A stretch of 15,378 nucleotides of DNA from an uncultured Mycoplasmatota bacterium (GTDB lineage Bacteria; Bacillota_I; Bacilli_A; RF39; UBA660), in NCBI GenBank assembly GCA_948470005.1, contig CAOKNI010000025.1:1-15378 (forward strand), in the 5' to 3' direction. Position 1 is the stretch's first letter; every line of letters starts with the position of its first letter. A program made the position numbers and the translations under genes. The notes beneath the pieces were generated by a model, which saw only the letters and a program-made list of their open reading frames with translations, made no database searches and was not told the origin of the DNA. Shown here piece by piece: positions 3,708 through 15,202 of this stretch.

Positions 3708-4724
3708 ATGATATATCCTGCATTTTTAAAAGAAAATGATATAATTGGTGTAACTGCACCATCAAACGGCATAGTAAATCCAGGTAAACTTAAAAGATTA
3801 GATTTTGCTATTAAAAATTTTGAACACAATGGTTTTTCTATAAAGGAAACTTCAAATATTAGAACTAGTATAAAAGGAAGAAGTAGCGATGCTTCTGTTA
3901 GAGCCAAAGAATTAGAAAGTTTATATTTAAATAAAGATACAAAAGCCATAATTTGTGCCGCAGGTGGCGATTTTTTGCTTGAAATGCTTCCTTATATCGA
4001 TTTTGAAGTAATAAAAAATAATCCCAAATGGTTGCAAGGATATTCTGATCCTACAGGACTTTTATATGTTATTACTACTAAGTTAGATATTGCAACTATT
4101 TACGGCGATAATTTTGCCCAGTTTGGTATGTCACCTTGGCATGAATCTTTAGAAAATAATTTAAGTATATTAAAAGGAAATATTATTACTCAAAAAAGTT
4201 TTGATAAGTACGAAAGTGTTGGACTTCATGAGTACGATAAAGGAGACGAAGGATATATTCTTAATGAAAAAGTATGCTGGGAAAGTTTAAATGGTGAAAA
4301 AGAAATTAATTTGCAAGGCCGAATTATTGGTGGTTGTCTCGATATTATAAGCGAGCTATTTGGTACTCGTTTTGATGGTACTTTACAATTTATTGAAAAA
4401 TATAAAGATGATGGAATTATTTGGTACTTTGATAATTGTGAGCATTCAAGTGAAGATATTATTAGAACATTTTGGCGCTTTTTAGATAGTGGTTATTTTA
4501 AATATGCTAAAGGAATAATTTTTGGTAGAAGTGCAACCGAGGCTAGCTACTATGATATTTCTTTTAAGGAAGCTATTAAAGATTCTTTAGGCACTTTAAA
4601 TATCCCTATTATCTTAAACGTCGATATTGGCCACGTTTCTCCTAGAATGACTATCATTAATGGTGCTATTATAAATTTAAAATATGTTAATAATAAAGGT
4701 AGTATTGACTTTATTTTAGAATAA
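3708..4724 (+). CDS. S66-family serine peptidase (LD-carboxypeptidase / MccF type)
   Basis: A 338-residue cytoplasmic serine peptidase of family S66. LdcA members trim the terminal D-Ala from recycled murein tetrapeptides; MccF members cleave microcin C-type acyl-nucleotides. Motifs: IIGVTAPSNGI near the N-terminus; AAGGDFLLEMLPYIDF; the nucleophile elbow GYSDPTG with Ser113; FDNCEHSSED with candidate Glu245; and VDIGHVSPRMT with candidate His309, completing the Ser-Glu-His triad. The length suits the MccF-like branch slightly better than classical LdcA. The ATG has AAGGAG about 10 nt upstream, directly after the mini-ORF stop. An overlapping ATG at 3701 is in another frame. The nearby wall genes favour a murein role, but the substrate is not settled by sequence. 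Confidence 0.85.
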   Translation: MIYPAFLKENDIIGVTAPSNGIVNPGKLKRLDFAIKNFEHNGFSIKETSNIRTSIKGRSSDASVRAKELESLYLNKDTKAIICAAGGDFLLEMLPYIDFEVIKNNPKWLQGYSDPTGLLYVITTKLDIATIYGDNFAQFGMSPWHESLENNLSILKGNIITQKSFDKYESVGLHEYDKGDEGYILNEKVCWESLNGEKEINLQGRIIGGCLDIISELFGTRFDGTLQFIEKYKDDGIIWYFDNCEHSSEDIIRTFWRFLDSGYFKYAKGIIFGRSATEASYYDISFKEAIKDSLGTLNIPIILNVDIGHVSPRMTIINGAIINLKYVNNKGSIDFILE

Positions 4725-4745
4725 ATTATTCTTGAAAAAATAAAG
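4709..4745. terminator. Shared bidirectional terminator hairpin
   Basis: CTTTATTTT-AGAATAA (4709-4724) pairs with TTATTCT (4726-4732) and AAAATAAAG (4737-4745), with an asymmetric bulge at 4733-4736 and a one-base centre. It covers the stop codons of both convergent genes, S66 peptidase and XRE regulator, which are only 1 nt apart. It is very AT-rich and so weakly stable, but the placement is right for both. Confidence 0.5.
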
Positions 4746-4983
4746 AAATATCTGTTTTTAAAGCATAAGCAATTCGACCTAAAAGAGCAATAGTTATATG
4801 TTTATTACGGCTCTCGTTTTCTAAATCGCAAATATATTCTCGTGAAATATTTGTTATATCCGCTAAATCCTGCTGTGATAAGCCATTAAGTAAACGATAT
4901 TTTTTAATGTTCTTTCTGATAATTATGTAATAGTACTCATCGTTTAAATTATAAAGAGGCTCTAAAATAGTTTTAGTTTTCAT
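4726..4983 (-). CDS. Small XRE-family helix-turn-helix regulator
   Basis: An 85-residue DNA-binding protein. Residues about 23-82 form a Cro/CI-type five-helix HTH: IRKNIKKYRLLNGLSQQDLA, then ITNISREYICDLENESRNK and the closing ALLGRIAYALKTD. There is no extra effector domain, only a 22-residue N-terminal extension. I chose the ATG at 4981-4983 because GGAG sits 6 nt before it; an in-frame TTG at 4995 lies inside that site. The gene diverges from the five-gene peptidoglycan operon and shares its 142-nt upstream region, so it is the obvious candidate regulator of that operon, possibly through the palindrome at 5045-5056. That link is inferred from position only. Confidence 0.85.
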   Translation of the reverse strand: MKTKTILEPLYNLNDEYYYIIIRKNIKKYRLLNGLSQQDLADITNISREYICDLENESRNKHITIALLGRIAYALKTDISLFFQE

Positions 4984-5044
4984 ATATAACTCCAATTTCT
5001 TTATATTTTGAGCTTATTTTAGGAAAAATGATATAGGCTCGTAG

Positions 5045-5062
5045 CCACAATTGTGGTATAAT
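5045..5062 (+). promoter_or_regulatory. Operon promoter with perfect palindrome CCACAATTGTGG
   Basis: An extended -10, TGGTATAAT (TATAAT at 5057-5062), is preceded directly by a perfect 12-bp palindrome at 5045-5056. No good -35 is found at 17 nt (TAGGCT at 5034-5039), so recognition would rest on the extended -10. A repressor bound at the palindrome would block polymerase. The untranslated leader to the ATG at 5126 would be about 57 nt. This is the promoter of the 5126-12241 operon. Confidence 0.65.
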
Positions 5063-5125
5063 AATTACTAGAAAACAAAAACTAAAAATAGATAATATAT
5101 TTGTTTTTATATGGAGGTATTTAAT

Positions 5126-6955
5126 ATGTGTGGAATTGTAGGATTTGTTAATAAAGAAGAAAAAAAAGAAGAAATAATTAAAAAAATGGCTGACCGAATT
5201 ATTCACCGTGGACCAGATGGTGAGGGGTATTATGTAGATGATGATATTGCTTTAGGACATCGTCGTCTATCTATTATTGATATTTCAGCTGGTAGTCAGC
5301 CTATGTTTAATGAAACCAAAGATATTGTGGTAATTTTTAATGGTGAAATATATAATTATAAAGCGTTAAGAACCGAGTTAAAAAAGCATAAGCATAAATT
5401 TGACACGAATTCTGATACCGAAGTTTTAGTTCATGGTTATGAAGAGTGGGGAGAAAGTTTACCTAACCACCTTCGTGGGATGTTTGCCTTTGCTATTTGG
5501 GATAAAAAAGAACAAAAATTATTTTGTGCTCGCGACAATTTTGGCATTAAACCATTTTATTATTATGAAAACAATGGCACATTTATGTTTGCTTCTGAAA
5601 TAAAGTGTTTTTTAGATCAACCTAACTTTGAAAAGAAACTTAATAAAGATTTATTAGGACCATACTTAACCTTTAGTTTTACTCCTACAACTGAAACCTT
5701 TTTTACTGGAGTAAATCGTCTTAACCCTGGACATAGTTTAACTTATCAAGATGGTAAAATTACTACCGAAAAATATTTTGAAATATCTTTTGAAGAAGAA
5801 AAAAGAAGTTATGAAGAAGCTGTAAATGAAATAGAAGCTGCGATGAAAGATTCTGTGAATCATCATTTAGAAAGTGATGTTGAGGTTGGCTCGTTTTTAT
5901 CTAGTGGCATTGATTCTTCTTATATTGTAAGTCTTGCTCGTCCAGATAAAACTTATACTGTTGGTTATGATATTCCTAAATATAGCGAGATAAGTTATGC
6001 TGAGGATTTAGCAAAGAGATTAGATATCGAAAATATAAGTAAAAAGATTACTAAAGAAGAATATATGGCTATTGTGCCAAAAGTTATGTATCACATGGAT
6101 GAACCATTTTGCGATGCCGCTTCTATTGCTTTGTATTTTTTGAGTGAACTTGCTAGCCGTGATGTCAAAGTTGTTTTATCAGGTGAGGGTGCCGATGAAT
6201 TTTTTGCCGGTTATAACACTTATAAAGAAACGGTTGATATGAGCTTTTATAATAAAATTCCTTATTTTATGCGCCATGCCATCGCCGTTGTCTTAAATAA
6301 ATTTCCAGAATTTAGAGGGCGTAATTTTCTTGTAAGACGAGGAACCAAACTTGAAGATGAATATATAAGTATGAACCGTGTATTTAGTGATAGCGAAATG
6401 CGTAAGGTCTTAGGTCATAAAAGTCCTATTAAAAATAAAGATATTACTAAGGAAACATTTGCTAAATTTAAAGATAAAAATGATTTAATTAAGATGCAGG
6501 CAATTGATATAAATTTTTGGTTGGTAAAAGATATTTTGCATAAAGCTGACCGAATGACGATGGCTAATTCTTTAGAGCTCCGTGTTCCATTTATTGATAA
6601 AGAGGTTTTTGCTCTTGCAAGTTCTTTAGAGATGGATAAAAAAGTTACGAAAGAAAATACTAAGGTAGCATTAAGGGATGCGGCTAGAAGAGTTATACCT
6701 AATGAATCATATAAAAAGAAAAAACTAGGATTTCCTGTTCCACTTCGTTCTTGGATGAGTGAGGTTGATGTTCAAGCAGAAATTAAAAAGACTTTCGAGC
6801 AAGATTTTGTTAAAGATTTATTTAATGAAAAATATATTTTAAAACTATTAAACGATTCTCTAAAAGCAAAGAAAAACACTTATAAAAAAGTTTGGGCAAT
6901 TTATGCTTTTATTAAGTGGTATGAAGTATTCTTTTTAGACAAAAATTTTGCTTAA
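5126..6955 (+). CDS. asnB: Glutamine-dependent asparagine synthetase-type amidotransferase (first copy)
   Basis: A 609-residue class II amidotransferase that moves the amide of glutamine to an ATP-activated carboxylate. Start: ATG-TGT at 5126, because the mature enzyme needs Cys2 as N-terminal nucleophile; an in-frame ATG at 5111 would bury it and overlaps the GGAGG site. Glutaminase motifs: MCGIVGF, IHRGPD, HRRLSIID, FNGEIYNY, SDTEVLVHGYE, LRGMFAFAIWD, ARDNFGIKPF. Synthetase motifs: PP-loop SSGIDSS (259-265), SGEGADEFFAGY (351-362), and KADRMTMANSLELRVPF further on. It is first in an operon with a racemase, a D-Asp ligase-like enzyme and a second copy. AsnB relatives amidate free aspartate, but also meso-DAP (B. 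subtilis AsnB) or D-Asp cross-bridges (L. lactis AsnH). A wall substrate is likely here but inferred. Confidence 0.9.
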   Translation: MCGIVGFVNKEEKKEEIIKKMADRIIHRGPDGEGYYVDDDIALGHRRLSIIDISAGSQPMFNETKDIVVIFNGEIYNYKALRTELKKHKHKFDTNSDTEVLVHGYEEWGESLPNHLRGMFAFAIWDKKEQKLFCARDNFGIKPFYYYENNGTFMFASEIKCFLDQPNFEKKLNKDLLGPYLTFSFTPTTETFFTGVNRLNPGHSLTYQDGKITTEKYFEISFEEEKRSYEEAVNEIEAAMKDSVNHHLESDVEVGSFLSSGIDSSYIVSLARPDKTYTVGYDIPKYSEISYAEDLAKRLDIENISKKITKEEYMAIVPKVMYHMDEPFCDAASIALYFLSELASRDVKVVLSGEGADEFFAGYNTYKETVDMSFYNKIPYFMRHAIAVVLNKFPEFRGRNFLVRRGTKLEDEYISMNRVFSDSEMRKVLGHKSPIKNKDITKETFAKFKDKNDLIKMQAIDINFWLVKDILHKADRMTMANSLELRVPFIDKEVFALASSLEMDKKVTKENTKVALRDAARRVIPNESYKKKKLGFPVPLRSWMSEVDVQAEIKKTFEQDFVKDLFNEKYILKLLNDSLKAKKNTYKKVWAIYAFIKWYEVFFLDKNFA

Positions 6956-6976
6956 AAAATAGATTGGAGTAACAAT

Positions 6977-8131
6977 ATGTATCGTAATACCTATGCTTTA
7001 ATTAATAAACAGATATTAAAAGACAATGTAGCAGAAATAAAGAAAAAATATCCCCATTATAAATATTATTTTGGAGTAGTTAAAAATAATGCTTATGGCC
7101 ATGGCGATGATGTTGTATCTTCTTTAATTGCTGGCGGAATTAATTATCTTGCGGTATCTAGTCTAGATGAAGCAATGCATATTCGTCAAAAAGAAACTGA
7201 AGTTCCTATTTTGGTATTAGAACCAATCAATTTAAAGTATTTGGATATTGCTCTAAATAACAATATTACTTTAACTATTGATAATATAGAAATGATAAAA
7301 GAATTATCTAAATTAAAAATATCTCATACTTTAAAAATACATTTAAAAATTGATTCTGGAATGAATAGACTAGGGTTTAAAAATAAAGAAGAAATAAATG
7401 AAGCTTATAAAATCATTTCGGGTACTGCTAATCTTTTTTTAGAAGGAATTTATACTCATTTTGCTACCTCTGGTCGTGGAGATGCTTATTATGATTTTCA
7501 AGTTAAACAAATATATAATTTACTTGCTGATATTGATTTGAAAAATATTCCCATAGTTCATTTTGACCGCAGTCTAACTTTTGTTAGTCATAAAAAATTA
7601 CCATATGTAAATGGTATCCGCTTAGGTATTATTATGTATGGTTTTAGTGGTAGTGTTATTCCTTCAAAAAGTATCAAAAGTAAATTACGTAAAATAAAGC
7701 ATTCTTTTTTTGGACCAAAAATGTCCGAATATATTAGTACTAATAATTTAAATTTACAAACAGCTTTTAGTCTTTATTCGGAAGTTATATCAACTAGAAA
7801 TGTTACAATAGGCGAAAAAGTAGGGTATAATGCTAATTATACTGTTCGTAATGATGGTTTTATTGCCACAATTGCGATAGGGTATGCAGATGGCGTTACT
7901 AAAGATTATAAATATGTTTTTATTAATAATAAACAATGTGAAATTGTTAGTGATTCTATGGATATGTTAATGGTCTTAGTTGATGATAAAGTCCAAATTG
8001 GTGATAAAGTTGAAATATTTGGCGATAATATTCCGATTAAAACGGTTAGTAACTTACTTAATACTAACAGTTATCATTTATTTAATATGATTACGAGTCG
8101 TGTTCCACGGATTTTTTTAGAAGAAAAATAA
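6977..8131 (+). CDS. alr: PLP-dependent alanine racemase-fold enzyme
   Basis: A 384-residue fold-type III PLP racemase, probably supplying a D-amino acid to the wall. The PLP lysine is Lys36 in VVKNNAYGHG. Also conserved: KIDSGMNRLGF, IYTHFAT, GIRLGIIMYG, the catalytic Tyr region KVGYNANYTV, IATIAIGYADG, SMDMLMV and ITSRVPRIF. Two features are unusual. The phosphate-binding segment, normally H-x-A-N-S-A, reads HFDRSLTF, keeping Ser but losing Asn. About 30 extra residues follow IMYGFSG before the second domain. It lies 21 nt after asnB with GGAG 8 nt upstream of the ATG, and 14 nt before the ATP-grasp ligase. Alanine is the default substrate; next to a D-Asp ligase-like gene, aspartate or another amino acid is possible. 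Confidence 0.85.
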   Translation: MYRNTYALINKQILKDNVAEIKKKYPHYKYYFGVVKNNAYGHGDDVVSSLIAGGINYLAVSSLDEAMHIRQKETEVPILVLEPINLKYLDIALNNNITLTIDNIEMIKELSKLKISHTLKIHLKIDSGMNRLGFKNKEEINEAYKIISGTANLFLEGIYTHFATSGRGDAYYDFQVKQIYNLLADIDLKNIPIVHFDRSLTFVSHKKLPYVNGIRLGIIMYGFSGSVIPSKSIKSKLRKIKHSFFGPKMSEYISTNNLNLQTAFSLYSEVISTRNVTIGEKVGYNANYTVRNDGFIATIAIGYADGVTKDYKYVFINNKQCEIVSDSMDMLMVLVDDKVQIGDKVEIFGDNIPIKTVSNLLNTNSYHLFNMITSRVPRIFLEEK

Positions 8132-8145
8132 AAGGAGGAGTAATA

Positions 8146-9354
8146 ATGGATTTTGAAGTATTAATTTTAGGTTCTGACCCTAATGCCTATTATATGGCTC
8201 GCTGTACTTTTGAAGCTTTTAAAAAAAAGCCATATGTCATTGGTCGAAGCCCACTTTCTTTTACTACTTATTCTAATATTTTAAATATAACGTATGAAAA
8301 AGATATGTGGAATGAAGAAGGATTTTTAAAAGTATTAAATAATTTTGCTAAGGAGCACCCAAAACCTATTCTTTTAATTAGTACTAATGAAACTTATACG
8401 GAATTTGTGAGTTCTAATAAAAATAAATTATCTTCTAATTATCTTTTTAATTTTCCAGATGTATCTATTATCAAAAGTTTAACTAATAAAGAGCTTTTTT
8501 ATAAGACTTATAAAGATAGTAAATTAGTATTTCCGAAAACTATTTATTATGACTGCCAGAAAAATACTTCTCTTAAAAAAATAACTTTTCCAGTAATTCT
8601 AAAACCTGCCAATGTTGTTATGTATAATCATATCACATTTCCTAGTAAAAATAAAATATATAAAATATCAAATCACGAAGAGTTAAAAGACACGATAAAT
8701 CTTATCAAAGAAAGTGGTTATAATGACAAATTAATAATTCAAGAATTTATTCCGGGTGGGGATGATGCTCTTTTTGATGCAGTTTTATATATTAATAGTA
8801 AAGGTAAATGTGAATTTATGACTTTTGCCCAAATTGGTTTGCAAGAACGTTCTAGAAACATGGTTGGTAATGCTGCAGTTTTAATTAATGGCTTTAATAC
8901 TACCAAAGGGGATGTAAATAAACAAGCCAATATTATAAAAGAATTTATGGAAAGTATTAATTATCGTGGTTTTGCGGAAGTTGACATGAAATATGACTCA
9001 CGGGATAATACCTTTAAAGTTTTAGAAATAAATGCTCGCCAAGGAAGAAGTAGTTATTATGTTGCCGCTCTTGGTAAAAATCTAATCGAAGTATTAGTTA
9101 ATGATTTAATTGAGCATGAATATCATGATTTTCAGTTTTTGCAAGAAAAAGTAATGCTTTCTTTTGTTCCAAAAGGTATTATAAAAAGATATATTCCAAA
9201 TAAAGAGTTTTTGAGGGAAGCTTTGAAGATGTGGAAACACGTAATTAAACCTATGGATGCCCCAGGTGACAAAAATTTTAAGCGGTTTTTAATGCTAAGA
9301 AAACGTTGGTTAAATTATTATAAAGAATATAAAAATAGTTATTGGAGGAGCTAA
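8146..9354 (+). CDS. ATP-grasp ligase, D-aspartate ligase (Aslfm) type
   Basis: A 402-residue ATP-grasp carboxylate-amine ligase. In Enterococcus faecium, Aslfm joins the beta-carboxyl of D-Asp to the epsilon-amine of the stem-peptide lysine in UDP-MurNAc-pentapeptide. Motifs: N-terminal VLILGSDPNAYYMAR; ATP-binding FPVILKP with Lys153; IIQEFIPGGDDALFDA (197-212); metal-binding FAEVDMKYDSRDNTFKVLEIN (276-296, Glu278 and Glu294 the candidate ligands); and ARQGRSSYYV. DMKYD-x-R-D followed by EIN-x-RQGRSS is, from memory, characteristic of this ligase group. AAAGGAGGAG precedes the ATG. The 3' end carries the GGAGGAG site of the second asnB, 2 nt ahead, so the two are tightly coupled. It could use another D-amino acid. 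Family confident, substrate inferred. Confidence 0.8.
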   Translation: MDFEVLILGSDPNAYYMARCTFEAFKKKPYVIGRSPLSFTTYSNILNITYEKDMWNEEGFLKVLNNFAKEHPKPILLISTNETYTEFVSSNKNKLSSNYLFNFPDVSIIKSLTNKELFYKTYKDSKLVFPKTIYYDCQKNTSLKKITFPVILKPANVVMYNHITFPSKNKIYKISNHEELKDTINLIKESGYNDKLIIQEFIPGGDDALFDAVLYINSKGKCEFMTFAQIGLQERSRNMVGNAAVLINGFNTTKGDVNKQANIIKEFMESINYRGFAEVDMKYDSRDNTFKVLEINARQGRSSYYVAALGKNLIEVLVNDLIEHEYHDFQFLQEKVMLSFVPKGIIKRYIPNKEFLREALKMWKHVIKPMDAPGDKNFKRFLMLRKRWLNYYKEYKNSYWRS

Positions 9355-9356
9355 AA

Positions 9357-11195
9357 ATGTGTGGAATTGTAGGATTTATTGATAAACAGAATAAAAAAAA
9401 TAAAAATATAACAATTAAAAAAATGGCTGATAAAATAATCCATCGGGGACCTGATGATGCCGGATATTATTCTGATGATTTTATTAGCTTAGGCCACCGT
9501 CGTCTTTCGATTATTGACTTAAAAAGCGGTAAACAACCCATATATAATGAAGATGAAAGCAAAGTAATTATTTTTAATGGCGAAATATATAACTATAAGG
9601 AATTAAAAGAAGAGTTAATTAAAAAAGGTCATAAATTTAAAACTGAAACAGATACAGAAGTGCTTATTCATGGCTATGAAGAATATAAAGAAGCTTTATT
9701 TCCTAAATTACGTGGTATGTTTGCCTTTGTCATATATGATAAAGTAACCCACGAATTAGTGGGAGCTCGTGATTATTTTGGCATCAAACCTTTTTATTAT
9801 TATCAAAAAGATAATGTATTCATGTTTTCTTCTGAAATTAAATCTTTTTTAGCTCATCCTGAATTTCAAAAAGAAGTTAATACCGACGCTTTAAAAATGT
9901 ATTTAATATTCCAATATTCTGTCCATGAAGAAACGTTTTTCAAAAATGTTTTCAAGTTAAAACCAGGACATTATTTTAAATATAAAGATGGAATTCTTAA
10001 AACAGAACAGTATTTTAAAGTTAAATACCATAAAACAAATAGAAATTATAATGATTATCGAAATGAATTAAAATCCACTTTAGAAGAGTCTATTAAATAT
10101 CATCAATTAACTAGTGATGTAGAAGTAGGTACTTATCTTTCTGGTGGAGTTGACTCTTCTTATGTAGCATCATTCGCTCATCCTGATAAATCATTTACTG
10201 TTGGCTTTGACATGAAAGGCTTTGATGAAACCAAAATGGCTAAAGATTTATCAGATATAATTGGTATTAAAAATTATAGTAAATATGTAAGTGGTGATGA
10301 ATTTTTTAAAATTTTACCAACGATAGTATATCATACAGATGAGCCTCATGCTAATCTTTCGACAGTACCTTTATATTTTTTAAGCAAACTTGCTAGCCAA
10401 GAAGTAAAAGTAGTGTTATCAGGTGAAGGTAGTGATGAAATGTTTGGCGGCTATAATGAGTATTACGAGCCTCTACTTCTTAGAATTTATACAAAAATAC
10501 CACTATTTTTCCGAAAGATTTTAGCTAATATTGTTACACCTTTGCCACACTTTCCAGGACAAAACACTATAAAGCTGTATGGGAAACCTTTTTATGAGCG
10601 ATATATTGGTCATGGTTCATATATGACGGAGAGTGAGGCTAATCTTATTTTAAATACTAATTTAAAAAGTGATGAGACTATTGGTGATATTTTAAAACCG
10701 TATTATGAAGAAGTAAAACATGCAAATGATATTACTAAAAAAATGTATATAGATATGTTTTTCTGGCTTCCTCAAGACATCTTATTAAAAGCTGATAAAA
10801 TGTCTATGGCTAATTCTTTAGAGCTTCGTGTGCCTTTATTAGATATAGAAGTTTTTAAATCATCAGAAAGTATTCCTACAAAATACTTAGTAAAAAATAA
10901 AGAGACCAAACACATTTTTCGTGATATTGCTTATGAAGAATTACCAGAAGAATGGGCTAAGAGACCAAAACTTGGCTTTCCAGTTCCTTTTGGGCGCTGG
11001 GCCAAGGAAGAAAAATATTATAAAATAATCAAAAAATATTTTAATAAAGATTATGTTGATAAATTTTTTGATAAAGCATATATTAATAAAGTATTAGACG
11101 ACCATTACCATAATATTAAAAGTAGTAGTTTAAAATTATATAATATTTTAATTTTTCTCATTTGGTATGAAGTTTATTTTGGAAGTGGTGAATAA
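9357..11195 (+). CDS. asnB: Glutamine-dependent asparagine synthetase-type amidotransferase (second copy)
   Basis: A 612-residue paralogue of the enzyme at 5126, with the same two domains. I chose ATG-TGT at 9357 so that Cys2 is exposed; an in-frame TTG at 9342 lies in the ribosome binding site. Glutaminase motifs: MCGIVGF, IHRGPD, HRRLSIID, FNGEIYNY, TDTEVLIHGYE, LRGMFAFVIYD, ARDYFGIKPF. Synthetase motifs: canonical PP-loop SGGVDSS (262-268; the first copy has Ser for the first Gly), LSGEGSDEMFGGY, KADKMSMANSLELRVPL. The copies are clearly diverged, most in the acceptor half, so they probably act on different substrates. Placed 2 nt after the D-Asp ligase-like gene, this copy is the better candidate for amidating ligated D-Asp to D-Asn, as AsnH does in Lactococcus. 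Its stop overlaps the next ATG by one base (TAATG). Confidence 0.9.
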   Translation: MCGIVGFIDKQNKKNKNITIKKMADKIIHRGPDDAGYYSDDFISLGHRRLSIIDLKSGKQPIYNEDESKVIIFNGEIYNYKELKEELIKKGHKFKTETDTEVLIHGYEEYKEALFPKLRGMFAFVIYDKVTHELVGARDYFGIKPFYYYQKDNVFMFSSEIKSFLAHPEFQKEVNTDALKMYLIFQYSVHEETFFKNVFKLKPGHYFKYKDGILKTEQYFKVKYHKTNRNYNDYRNELKSTLEESIKYHQLTSDVEVGTYLSGGVDSSYVASFAHPDKSFTVGFDMKGFDETKMAKDLSDIIGIKNYSKYVSGDEFFKILPTIVYHTDEPHANLSTVPLYFLSKLASQEVKVVLSGEGSDEMFGGYNEYYEPLLLRIYTKIPLFFRKILANIVTPLPHFPGQNTIKLYGKPFYERYIGHGSYMTESEANLILNTNLKSDETIGDILKPYYEEVKHANDITKKMYIDMFFWLPQDILLKADKMSMANSLELRVPLLDIEVFKSSESIPTKYLVKNKETKHIFRDIAYEELPEEWAKRPKLGFPVPFGRWAKEEKYYKIIKKYFNKDYVDKFFDKAYINKVLDDHYHNIKSSSLKLYNILIFLIWYEVYFGSGE

Positions 11196-12241
11196 TGACT
11201 AGAAGAAAGCGTAAAAAAGGAATACGAATTGGCCGTTTGTTATTACTTTTAATTGTTATTACTGGCATAATTTATATAGCAAAAGAGGCAGTATTTTATT
11301 CTAAGGATTTTAAAAATTTTTTCTTTAATAACGAAAAAAGTGAAGAAAATCCAAAAAGTAATGACAAAGATAAAGATAATGATAAGGAATTACAAAATAA
11401 TTATGAAGCTTGCTTAAATGAACCGTATAGTGAAGATGAAATAAATTATAAATTACAAGCAAAGATTGAGGAAATAGACAACTTAATAGCAAATAATTAT
11501 AAAGCATCAGTTTATTTTGAAGATTTAAAATTAGGATTTACTTACACTTATAAGCCAGAGGAAGTTTATTATGGATGTAGTTTAATAAAGTTAGTTGATG
11601 CAATATATTTAATTAATAAAGCAACAGTTAGCGATAATAAAATTGATTTAGATAAAGTCACAATAAAATATGATAGCAAATATGTTATGGCTTATTCTGA
11701 TGGACTTAAAAGGCACAAAATAGGAGATGATATAAGTTTACGCAACCTTATTAAATATGCTATATCAGTAAGTGACAATTCTGCTCATATGATGCTTATA
11801 AATTATATAGGTTTTAATAATTTAAAAGAATATGGTAAAAGCTTAGGTGGTAAAGTAATATTAACAGGTGGCGATAATTTTGGTAATCAAACTGCGGAAG
11901 ATACAAATAATTACTTGAAAGAAGCTTACCGTATAATTACAAAAAATGAAGAGTATGGCCAATTTTTAAAAGAAATAATGGATAACGATGAAAGAAACGC
12001 TTTTAATACAGATGATATTCGCATTTATCATAAATATGGTAGTTATGGCGACAACTTTCATGATATTGGACTAAGCTTGGAAGAGCATCCTTATGCAATA
12101 TCAATATTAACGTTACACGAGAAAAGTAATTATACCGAAGTCATTCAAACTATTCATACTAAAATTCGCGAACTAAGAGATTTATTTTATGAGAATCGTG
12201 AGAATAATTGCTATAATATCATATATAATAAAAATAATTAA
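11195..12241 (+). CDS. Membrane-anchored class A beta-lactamase-fold serine hydrolase
   Basis: A 348-residue penicillin-recognising serine enzyme. A basic start (MTRRKRKKGIRIGR) and hydrophobic segment 15-30 form a signal anchor, so the enzyme faces outward. A Lys/Asp/Glu-rich linker (about 46-68) follows. Catalytic motifs: S-x-x-K in CSLIKL (Ser129, Lys132), SDN at 193-195, and K-x-G in HKYGSYG (Lys280). The omega-loop region, GGDNFGNQTAEDTNNYLKE, is short and has no obvious counterpart of the deacylating Glu166. The fold fits, but antibiotic hydrolysis is doubtful; a D,D-carboxypeptidase, transpeptidase or other wall-peptide hydrolase is more likely. Translation is coupled to asnB by a 1-nt overlap. 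It is the last gene of the operon and is followed by a hairpin terminator. Confidence 0.8.
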   Translation: MTRRKRKKGIRIGRLLLLLIVITGIIYIAKEAVFYSKDFKNFFFNNEKSEENPKSNDKDKDNDKELQNNYEACLNEPYSEDEINYKLQAKIEEIDNLIANNYKASVYFEDLKLGFTYTYKPEEVYYGCSLIKLVDAIYLINKATVSDNKIDLDKVTIKYDSKYVMAYSDGLKRHKIGDDISLRNLIKYAISVSDNSAHMMLINYIGFNNLKEYGKSLGGKVILTGGDNFGNQTAEDTNNYLKEAYRIITKNEEYGQFLKEIMDNDERNAFNTDDIRIYHKYGSYGDNFHDIGLSLEEHPYAISILTLHEKSNYTEVIQTIHTKIRELRDLFYENRENNCYNIIYNKNN

Positions 12242-12264
12242 AAGAAGAATCGACTTCTTTTTTT
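12240..12264 (+). terminator. Terminator of the peptidoglycan operon
   Basis: AAAAGAAG (12240-12247) pairs perfectly with CTTCTTTT (12254-12261) around the 6-nt loop AATCGA, and the T-run continues to 12264. It starts within the stop codon of the serine hydrolase gene and closes the five-gene operon. Confidence 0.85.
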
Positions 12265-12340
12265 GATTTATAATTTTATAGATTTTTTAGACAATGTCAT
12301 TAAATAATAATTTTCATATATTAACATTAGGAGGAAATTT

Positions 12341-13261: not shown

Positions 13262-13291
13262 AAAAAGCTTCTAGTAATAGAAACTTTTTTT
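13260..13291. terminator. Bidirectional terminator between SDR and tspO genes
   Basis: AAAAAAAG (13260-13267) pairs with CTTTTTTT (13284-13291), then a one-base mismatch, then TTCTA/TAGAA around a GTAA loop. A-run and T-run flank the stem, so it can terminate both convergent genes. It overlaps parts of both stop codons. Confidence 0.85.
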
Positions 13292-13745
13292 AGTTTAGTA
13301 CATATATTCCAATTGTTAAGTAAGTAGCAAAAAGTATCCAGACCATATAAGGAATATTAAGATATAAAGATATTTTTTTTCTTTGGCTAAATAAATATAA
13401 TAAAATAAGCATTAATATATCAAGTAAAATAATCCACAATATTGCTAAAAATCTTGCTTTCCATAAAAAGAAGATTAAGGACCATAAAGCATTAATGAAT
13501 AATTGAACATAATAAACAATATCTACAACATTATTTTCTTTATAATCCTTTTTATAAATATAATAAGATAGACCCATTAATAAATAGATTATTGTCCAAG
13601 CAATGGGAAATAAAATTTCGGGAGGAGCAAGAGGAGGTCTTACTAGACTTGTATAATCAATACTATTTCGAATTAAAAATGCAACAAGCCCGCCCATAGC
13701 CAATGGAAAAAATAAATAAAATAATAATTTAAAAAACTTTTTCAT
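13290..13745 (-). CDS. tspO: TspO/MBR family membrane protein
   Basis: A 151-residue, five-helix membrane protein of the tryptophan-rich sensory protein / peripheral benzodiazepine receptor family, which binds porphyrins and related ligands. Helices lie at about 6-25, 44-65, 74-95, 99-118 and 127-149. Family motifs: RPPLAPPEILFPIAWTIIY starting at 36, with the loop-1 proline pair and following W-x-x-x-Y; NALWSLIFF (85-93); PYMVWILFATYL (132-143). I chose the ATG at 13743-13745, which has AAAGGTG about 4 nt upstream; an in-frame GTG at 13760 lies before that site and would add only MERCF. No haem or tetrapyrrole genes are near, so the role is open (oxidative or osmotic stress sensing, porphyrin handling). 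Confidence 0.9.
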   Translation of the reverse strand: MKKFFKLLFYLFFPLAMGGLVAFLIRNSIDYTSLVRPPLAPPEILFPIAWTIIYLLMGLSYYIYKKDYKENNVVDIVYYVQLFINALWSLIFFLWKARFLAILWIILLDILMLILLYLFSQRKKISLYLNIPYMVWILFATYLTIGIYVLN

Positions 13746-13763
13746 AAAACACCTTTCCACTAA

Positions 13764-14165: not shown

Positions 14166-14185
14166 AAAGAAAGGAGATGGTTATT

Positions 14186-15202
14186 TTGAATAATTTAGAA
14201 GTCATTAGCAGTACAGAAGAATTTTTAGTTTTTAAAACACAAGAACAAGAAAAGGGAATTGCTGTCAGATATGAAAATGAAAATCTATGGATGACTCAAA
14301 AAGCTATGGCAGAATTATTTAATGTAGAGCAGCCTGCAATAGCTAAACATTTAATTAACATTTATAATGAAAATGAACTTGATAAATCCTCAACTTATTC
14401 CAAAATGGAATTAGTTCAAAAAGAAGGAAACAGAAATGTAAAAAGAAATGTTGAATTTTATAGTTTAGATGCTATTATATCTGTAGGTTATAGAGTTAAT
14501 TCAAGAAGAGCGACTCAATTTAGAAGATGGGCAACACAAGTTTTAAAAAAATTTACGATTGAAGGATATGTTTTAGATAAGAAGCGAATGGAGAATGGAA
14601 CATTCTTAAATAAAGATTATTTTGAAAAACTTTTAGAAGAGATAAGAGAAATACGTTTAAGTGAAAGAAGATTTTATCAAAAAATAACTGATATATACGC
14701 AACTAGCATTGATTATGATGCTAAGGCTCCGACGACAATCGAATTATTTAAAAAAGTACAGAATAAGATGCACTATGCTATTACACATCAAACGGCAGCA
14801 GAAATTATCTATAATAGAGCAGACCATACAAAAGAGAATATGAATTTAACTTCTTGGAAGAATTCTCCTAATGGAAAAATTATGGAATCTGATGTAATAA
14901 TAGCTAAGAATTATTTAACTAAAGAAGAAATTAAAGATTTAGAAAGAATTGTAAATGCCTTTTTGGAACTTGCAGAAAGAAGGGCAGAAAGGCATATTCC
15001 AATGACAATGGAAGATTGGAGTTCGAGAATTGATAAATTTTTACTAGCAGATGATTTAGATGTTTTAAAGGGTGCAGGAAAAATATCACATGAAATAGCT
15101 GTGGATAAAGCTTTAAGTGAATTTGAAAAATATAGAATTACACAAGATAAATTATTTGAGTCCGATTTTGATAAGTTTATGATTGAAATTGAAAAAGATT
15201 AG
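14186..15202 (+). CDS. rhuM: RhuM family protein
   Basis: A 338-residue member of the virulence-associated RhuM family, first named in Salmonella pathogenicity island 3 and common beside mobile elements and restriction systems in gut bacteria. Its biochemistry is not established. Residues about 34-60 (LWMTQKAMAELFNVEQPAIA onward) look like a DNA-binding winged-helix/HTH region. Residues 92-134 hold the family core, YSLDAIISVGYRVNSRRATQ then FRRWATQVLKKF. The C-terminal half (ITHQTAAEIIYNRADHTKENM, then a helical tail) is full length. An in-frame ATG at 14177 touches the AAGGAG site (14171-14176) with no spacing, so I prefer TTG at 14186, 9 nt downstream, giving MNNLEV. A remnant of a second copy lies at 13801-13893. 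Confidence 0.85.
   Translation: MNNLEVISSTEEFLVFKTQEQEKGIAVRYENENLWMTQKAMAELFNVEQPAIAKHLINIYNENELDKSSTYSKMELVQKEGNRNVKRNVEFYSLDAIISVGYRVNSRRATQFRRWATQVLKKFTIEGYVLDKKRMENGTFLNKDYFEKLLEEIREIRLSERRFYQKITDIYATSIDYDAKAPTTIELFKKVQNKMHYAITHQTAAEIIYNRADHTKENMNLTSWKNSPNGKIMESDVIIAKNYLTKEEIKDLERIVNAFLELAERRAERHIPMTMEDWSSRIDKFLLADDLDVLKGAGKISHEIAVDKALSEFEKYRITQDKLFESDFDKFMIEIEKD

Follow-up and report, generated by a model that had tools for sequence, protein, structure and literature searches.

A racemase of the alanine-racemase fold beside a distant relative of D-aspartate ligases: a candidate peptidoglycan cross-bridge module in an uncultured bacterium

Clusters of genes for D-amino acid cross-bridges raise the question of which enzyme supplies the D-amino acid, and this question is posed by contig CAOKNI010000025.1 of an uncultured Mycoplasmatota bacterium (assembly GCA_948470005.1), analysed as a whole stretch of 15,378 nucleotides (nt; hereafter the window). 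Five open reading frames (ORFs), all on the + strand, span positions 5126-12241 and encode two AsnB-type amidotransferases (AsnB1 and AsnB2), a racemase, an ATP-grasp ligase and a penicillin-recognising hydrolase, in which an earlier note on this DNA had seen a self-contained five-gene module. The aspartate racemase RacD is independent of pyridoxal phosphate (PLP), whereas the racemase of the window is a PLP enzyme of the alanine-racemase (Alr) fold. In Lactococcus ligation, racemisation and amidation are carried out by AslA, RacD and AsnH, and in those lactic acid bacteria where the bridge has been worked out the D-Asp of the wall comes from RacD (PMC4155827).

Could the Alr-fold enzyme, then, be doing the job of RacD? 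It is proposed here, with a probability of roughly 0.55, that racemase, ligase and AsnB2 form a D-Asp/D-Asn peptidoglycan cross-bridge module in which an Alr-fold racemase replaces RacD. The analysis itself shows sequence homology, gene linkage, co-occurrence, the existence of a RacD version within the same order and a diverged active site; every substrate and the order of the steps are inferred. Very probably the pathway is real and of an ordinary kind, with the racemase as its one unusual part. It is suggested more tentatively, at somewhat less than even odds, that the Alr-fold subfamily is a dedicated or dual aspartate racemase of the cross-bridge pathway, co-evolving with its own D-Asp ligase clade and taking the part of RacD in a single order of uncultured bacteria.

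Racemase, ligase and AsnB2 as a conserved unit

The three genes concerned are the following, with the evidence for each in brackets:

6977 to 8131, + strand: rac, PLP racemase of the alanine-racemase fold, ligase-linked subfamily (Pfam, NCBIfam, structure model, tree, alignment)
8146 to 9354, + strand: ATP-grasp ligase, distant homologue of D-aspartate ligases (Aslfm/AslA) (homology, structure model, tree)
9357 to 11195, + strand: asnB2, ligase-linked amidotransferase, AsnH-like by position (Pfam, loci, tree; ATG start seen)

Their neighbourhood was compared across 80 public genome loci, those cut by contig ends being kept in the denominator. Of the 80, 77 have an Alr-fold racemase no more than 120 bp upstream of the ligase and 79 have one somewhere in the locus; the exception (L049) begins at the ligase itself. 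Downstream, 58 loci have an AsnB no farther than 150 bp away (60 if two lying farther off are counted), and the tabulated downstream AsnBs match asnB2 best; one locus (L047) has a second AsnB downstream of asnB2. An AsnB upstream of the racemase is present in 9/80 loci, at least 700 nt before the racemase being available in 74, and the hydrolase was recognised in one. The racemase-ligase pairing is far beyond chance, and the conserved unit, rac-ligase-asnB2, is smaller than five genes, so that of the module proposed earlier the core recurs in relatives in the same order, whereas AsnB1 and the penicillin-recognising gene were rarely seen with it. A PF01943-type (flippase-like) exporter follows asnB2 in eight loci (L046, L055, L059, L062, L063, L065, L067, L076) and adjoins the ligase in genomes G035 and G052, where the racemase lies elsewhere.

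Co-occurrence was counted in 146 genomes of the order to which one relative, G001, belongs, with a ligase threshold of E 1e-10 or better. Two ligase versions were found, the window type in 24 genomes (431-768 bits) and a lactobacillus-like type in nine (240-282 bits). The racemase type, at 424 bits or more, was found in 24 genomes and additionally, as two contig pieces, in G069; it is present in 24/24 genomes with the window ligase type (23/24 without G069) versus 1/122 of the others, the lone exception being G085, and in none of the nine with the lactobacillus-like ligase. Fisher's exact test gives p of about 1e-26 (about 1e-24 without G069), a value that ignores the kinship of these related genomes. 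Since ligase and racemase lie on different contigs and are not neighbours in G035, G050 and G052, the pairing is more than linkage. A ligase adjoins RacD in three of the 33 ligase-bearing genomes (G079, G113, G128), all of them among the nine with the lactobacillus-like type, with an AsnB also behind it in the latter two. The module of the window departs from this RacD/Asl/AsnH form, since its racemase consists of Ala_racemase N and C domains in place of RacD (PF01177). The AsnB of a racemase-ligase locus (L183, in G141) gives the strongest hint of a common product of the two versions: it is 79% and 76% identical to the AsnBs of the RacD operons L169 and L168, respectively, and is grouped with them at 100/100.

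Judged by homology, the window ligase is a distant full-length relative of D-Asp ligases and belongs with those linked to RacD, which bears out its earlier description as a D-aspartate ligase-type ATP-grasp enzyme. It shares 27% identity over 98% with a Latilactobacillus curvatus ligase adjoining an annotated amino acid racemase (RacD-linked) and 33-36% with the ligases adjoining RacD in the order of G001; a full-length relative in Lactobacillus crispatus sits behind an asnB. In Pfam only ATP-grasp_3 is matched, below its cut-off (21.1 versus 23.2 bits), and no family above cut-off. Of 4874 candidates in the profile search, 1816 matched at E 0.001 or better, the nearest named relatives being from assemblies labelled Bacilli, Tenericutes, Mycoplasma or Erysipelotrichaceae, which resemble GTDB order RF39, and more distant ones also from Clostridia and Lachnospiraceae. 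The AlphaFold model (mean predicted local distance difference test, pLDDT, 90.6) resembles ATP-grasp enzymes generally, including an L-amino acid ligase and PylC, with 10-16% identity among the matches listed, and the ligase profile retrieved no PDB sequence at E 0.01 or better.

The racemase and its active site

That the racemase has the Alr fold and is not a RacD, as the earlier note had it, agrees with its Pfam domains (Ala_racemase N and C), with the kept catalytic residues and with its structure model (mean pLDDT 92), for which Foldseek matches were alanine racemases (template modelling score 0.86 to 1sft_B). With alanine racemases (fold type III) it shares the fold, the PLP lysine, the catalytic tyrosine and other core residues, and the NCBIfam alr equivalog is above its cut-off (268 versus 168 bits), whereas the VanT serine-racemase model, at 172 bits, remains far below its cut-off of 460. 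It differs from them in that a tree of 54 rows (the trees were built from chosen subsets of 54, 36 and 35 rows) splits canonical Alr at 100/99 from the ligase-linked racemases and the sister and degenerate groups that accompany them, in the residues lining the entry to the active site, and in going with one ligase type.

Residues were counted, in Geobacillus numbering, in 78 ligase-linked racemases (that of the window and those of 77 of the 79 loci having one, the contig-cut L005 and L065 being left out) and in 16 canonical Alr rows, from which four duplicates, five sister-group rows and seven degenerate-group rows had been left out. K39, R136, H166, R219 and Y265 are kept in 78/78 of the ligase-linked enzymes, and Y354 is kept in that of the window. 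D171, R290, R309 and I352 form the middle layer of the Alr active-site entry (PMC3245724), and this layer, conserved in Alr, is given up in the ligase-linked racemases, in which these residues are kept in 0, 4, 0 and 0 of 78. D171 is replaced by G in all 78 (kept in 14/16 canonical rows) and R309 by D or E in 72; R290 is kept in 14/16 canonical rows and I352 in 15/16. The window racemase has G, K, D and N at the four positions. N203, near the PLP phosphate, is R in 74/78. This replacement of entry residues points to a changed substrate, without naming which.

A separate observation concerns seven Alr-fold relatives (L195-L201, in G033, G076, G060, G123, G138, G154 and G132), which show a gap where the catalytic tyrosine would stand, besides further changes in the active site, two of them also being without the PLP lysine; in the ligase profile search no match was found in any of the seven genomes.

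Proposed reactions, acceptor and competing explanations

If RacD is replaced as proposed, the Alr-fold racemase would convert the L-form into D-Asp with PLP, possibly yielding D-Ala too; the ligase would activate the side-chain carboxylate of D-Asp and couple it to a wall precursor, at the free amine of the diamino acid in third position; and AsnB2 would amidate the remaining alpha-carboxylate with nitrogen from glutamine. The Alr-fold enzyme would occupy the place of RacD, to which it is unrelated. The combination of ATP-grasp ligase, racemase and AsnB-type amidotransferase is shared with AslA or Aslfm, RacD and AsnH of Lactococcus lactis and Enterococcus faecium (PMC4155827), as is the full-length homology of the window ligase to RacD-linked ones, the ligase-RacD-AsnB form being found even in the order of G001; the differences lie in the racemase, in the separate ligase clade and in the MurE of the relatives. 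A search of open-access papers with limited terms found none on this gene set. Should the proposal be true, a PLP enzyme of the Alr fold doing RacD's job would be a clear replacement of one enzyme by an unrelated one, for which candidate substrate-switching residues are already visible in the racemase alignment, and it would give a concrete prediction of wall chemistry for little-cultured Bacilli orders with incomplete-looking peptidoglycan pathways (PMC10868615).

The wall-precursor genes were surveyed in 20 relatives (G001-G020), the same searches being made on 14 controls. MurE was above cut-off in 18/20 relatives, DapF was found in four, MurT in eight and DAP dehydrogenase in two (2/26 with six more genomes added). 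Matches to PF01177 (MurI/RacD) were absent in 15/20 and present in five, one with a broken frame; the PF01063 transaminase was above cut-off in three and gave no match above it in 17, and DapB was present in two and absent in 18. PF01177 was found in 10 of the controls, PF01063 in 13, DapB in 11 and DapF in nine, so the search method works. The frequent absence of wall-precursor genes, in genomes whose completeness is not stated, suggests scavenging, and for RF39, ML615J-28 and a RFN20 family a pathway of the meso-diaminopimelic acid (mDAP) type with missing steps, which might need scavenging, has been described (PMC10868615). Stem precursors may be partly scavenged, and the module may not be self-contained; the frequent lack of matches to PF01177, PF01063 and DapB speaks against the self-containment suggested earlier. 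Lys and scavenged mDAP are both candidates for the amine that accepts the residue.

It is unlikely that a housekeeping alanine racemase is simply parked beside a D-Asp ligase, with D-Asp coming from the surroundings or an unknown enzyme. The alr equivalog score and the intact catalytic residues would suit such an enzyme, as would its being the only Ala_racemase_C match above cut-off in 15/20 relatives, but it is paired with the window ligase type in every one of the 24 genomes, its entry residues differ, a second match is present in 5/20 relatives and in L062, L063 and L065 the cluster is itself followed by a canonical Alr (the first racemase of L065 being truncated at the contig end), a finding that speaks against a linked racemase serving D-Ala supply alone. 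Moreover, 81/146 genomes have no racemase-profile match at E 0.001 or better, so home-made D-Ala may often be dispensable. A broad or dual racemase, making D-Ala and D-Asp and perhaps D-Glu after loss of MurI and D-amino-acid transaminase, overlaps with the replacement of RacD and would be in keeping with 12/20 relatives that have one Ala_racemase_C, no PF01177 and no PF01063 above cut-off. It is nevertheless rather doubtful, since genomes without the racemase often lack PF01177 too: a match is present in 5/25 racemase-bearing genomes versus 50/121 others (Fisher p 0.07) or versus 16/40 with another Alr match (Fisher p 0.11). With this lack not clearly tied to the presence of the racemase, a replacement of MurI, or a role in D-Glu supply, is not claimed.

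A ligase that adds a different D-residue (D-Ser or D-Glu), with the racemase as its source, would accord with a distinct ligase clade going together with a distinct racemase subfamily and with the match to the VanT model, weak as it is. Such a ligase is considered improbable, because an AsnB acting on the added residue would need a second carboxylate, which D-Ser lacks, and because one AsnB of a racemase-ligase operon has counterparts at 76-79% identity in RacD operons.

Several observations weigh against a D-Asp/D-Asn module with a replaced RacD. The window ligase, at 27-36% identity to RacD-linked ligases, stands in a clade of its own (100/100), and its D-amino acid could therefore differ. 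Six of the nine lactobacillus-like ligases, some near a contig end, have no racemase match alongside, so such a ligase can exist without a linked racemase. D-Ala may have to come from the racemase, the sole Ala_racemase_C match above cut-off in most relatives surveyed. At two positions the residue change is not clean-cut, N203 being kept in 7/16 and R309 in 8/16 canonical rows. The downstream AsnB is absent in 20/80 loci, nine of which have more than 4 kb of room; in the AsnB tree the fork joining the AsnBs of L168, L169 and L183 to other rac-linked AsnBs is weak (84/56), and those of L001, L003, L004 and L176 stand apart as a further group. Finally, the DNPR motif, usual in MurE for mDAP rather than Lys, was found in 17 of the 18 MurE of relatives read. 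The known D-Asp bridges are attached to Lys (PMC4155827).

The remaining operon and its surroundings

The other elements of the operon are:

5054 to 5062, + strand: extended -10 promoter-like element TGGTATAAT (sequence reading; a good -35 is absent)
5126 to 6955, + strand: asnB1, glutamine-dependent amidotransferase (ORF, Pfam, NCBIfam, start-site reading, trees)
11195 to 12241, + strand: Beta-lactamase2-family serine hydrolase with a hydrophobic N-terminal stretch, outside the conserved core (Pfam, motifs)
12236 to 12268, + strand: terminator-like hairpin with U tract (folding versus shuffles)

The tight five-gene arrangement described earlier agrees with ORFs and coordinates, with gaps of 21, 14 and 2 nt between asnB1, rac, ligase and asnB2 and an overlap of 1 nt between asnB2 and the beta-lactamase-like gene. 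N-terminal nucleophile (Ntn) amidotransferases require Cys2. Since the ATG at 5126 gives this residue and is preceded by GGAGG, it was preferred as the start of asnB1 over a longer ORF from 5111. Of the single promoter and single terminator suggested earlier, the latter is upheld by the hairpin with its U tract (z -3.2; equally good folding in 0/200 shuffles), which was not among the calls of a simple terminator scan of the window, whereas the promoter evidence is weak: the element at 5054-5062 was not among the calls of a promoter scan, and the window holds no more promoter-like matches than chance would give (102 versus an expected 101.8).

Both AsnBs carry Asn_synthase and GATase domains and are 48% identical to each other. 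In the tree of 35 AsnB rows, AsnB1 belongs to a group of 13, including L187-L192, L193 and the second AsnB of L047, that is split at 100/100 from the remaining rows; these hold the ligase-linked AsnBs of both racemase versions, and AsnB2 groups with the rac-linked ones. AsnB1 orthologues lie in six relatives (L187-L192) on stretches of 12-13 kb without a ligase match, their neighbours (Tex, sulfatase, PAP2) giving no indication of the AsnB1 substrate. AsnB1 looks lineage-specific and mostly unlinked to the ligase in relatives. Since amidation of mDAP is within the reach of AsnB-type enzymes (PMC8554201), the stem is a possible target of AsnB1. The mDAP amidotransferases of Listeria (AsnB) and L. 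plantarum (AsnB1) are AsnB-type by annotation, as are both AsnBs of the window (PMC8554201, PMC4155827). AsnB1 of the window would have been recruited into the operon in close relatives of the window and would probably amidate another carboxylate (stem D-Glu or mDAP) or make Asn.

The hydrolase is above the Pfam cut-off for Beta-lactamase2 and far below that of bla_class_A (47 versus 200 bits), with SLIK at 129, SDN at 193 and KYG instead of KTG at 280. Its one recognised counterpart among the 80 loci (L005) is a piece cut by the contig end, with 83 bits and no Pfam family. This penicillin-recognising protein looks lineage-specific, but with at least 1 kb behind the downstream AsnB in 28/60 loci its rarity is a weak negative.

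Clusters of ligase, RacD-type racemase and AsnB were also seen in a record labelled phage (L004, LT985590) and in one labelled as a Subdoligranulum plasmid (L003, OY725879), both records being without annotation there. Viral spread of the module was considered and set aside: none of 74 pattern-matching stretches in viral contigs was confirmed, and distant matches were found in five annotated phage records.

Around the operon, an LD-carboxypeptidase family S66 gene just upstream (3708-4724) and an NlpC/P60 protein nearby (102-1460) are likely wall-related. A small XRE-type regulator is divergent from asnB1 both in the window (4726-4995, minus strand) and in L033 (991-1248, minus strand). Among the 80 loci, 44 (e.g., L021, L041) carry a UvrD-like helicase, which in most cases points away from the racemase, and 14 a VanZ-family gene. 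Farther downstream in the window lie a RhuM-family gene (14177-15202) and a TspO-family gene (13290-13760, minus strand); the latter family is also found near the module in nine relatives (L048, L058, L066, L070, L071, L074, L075, L077, L078) and near the unlinked AsnB1 in L189 and L192.

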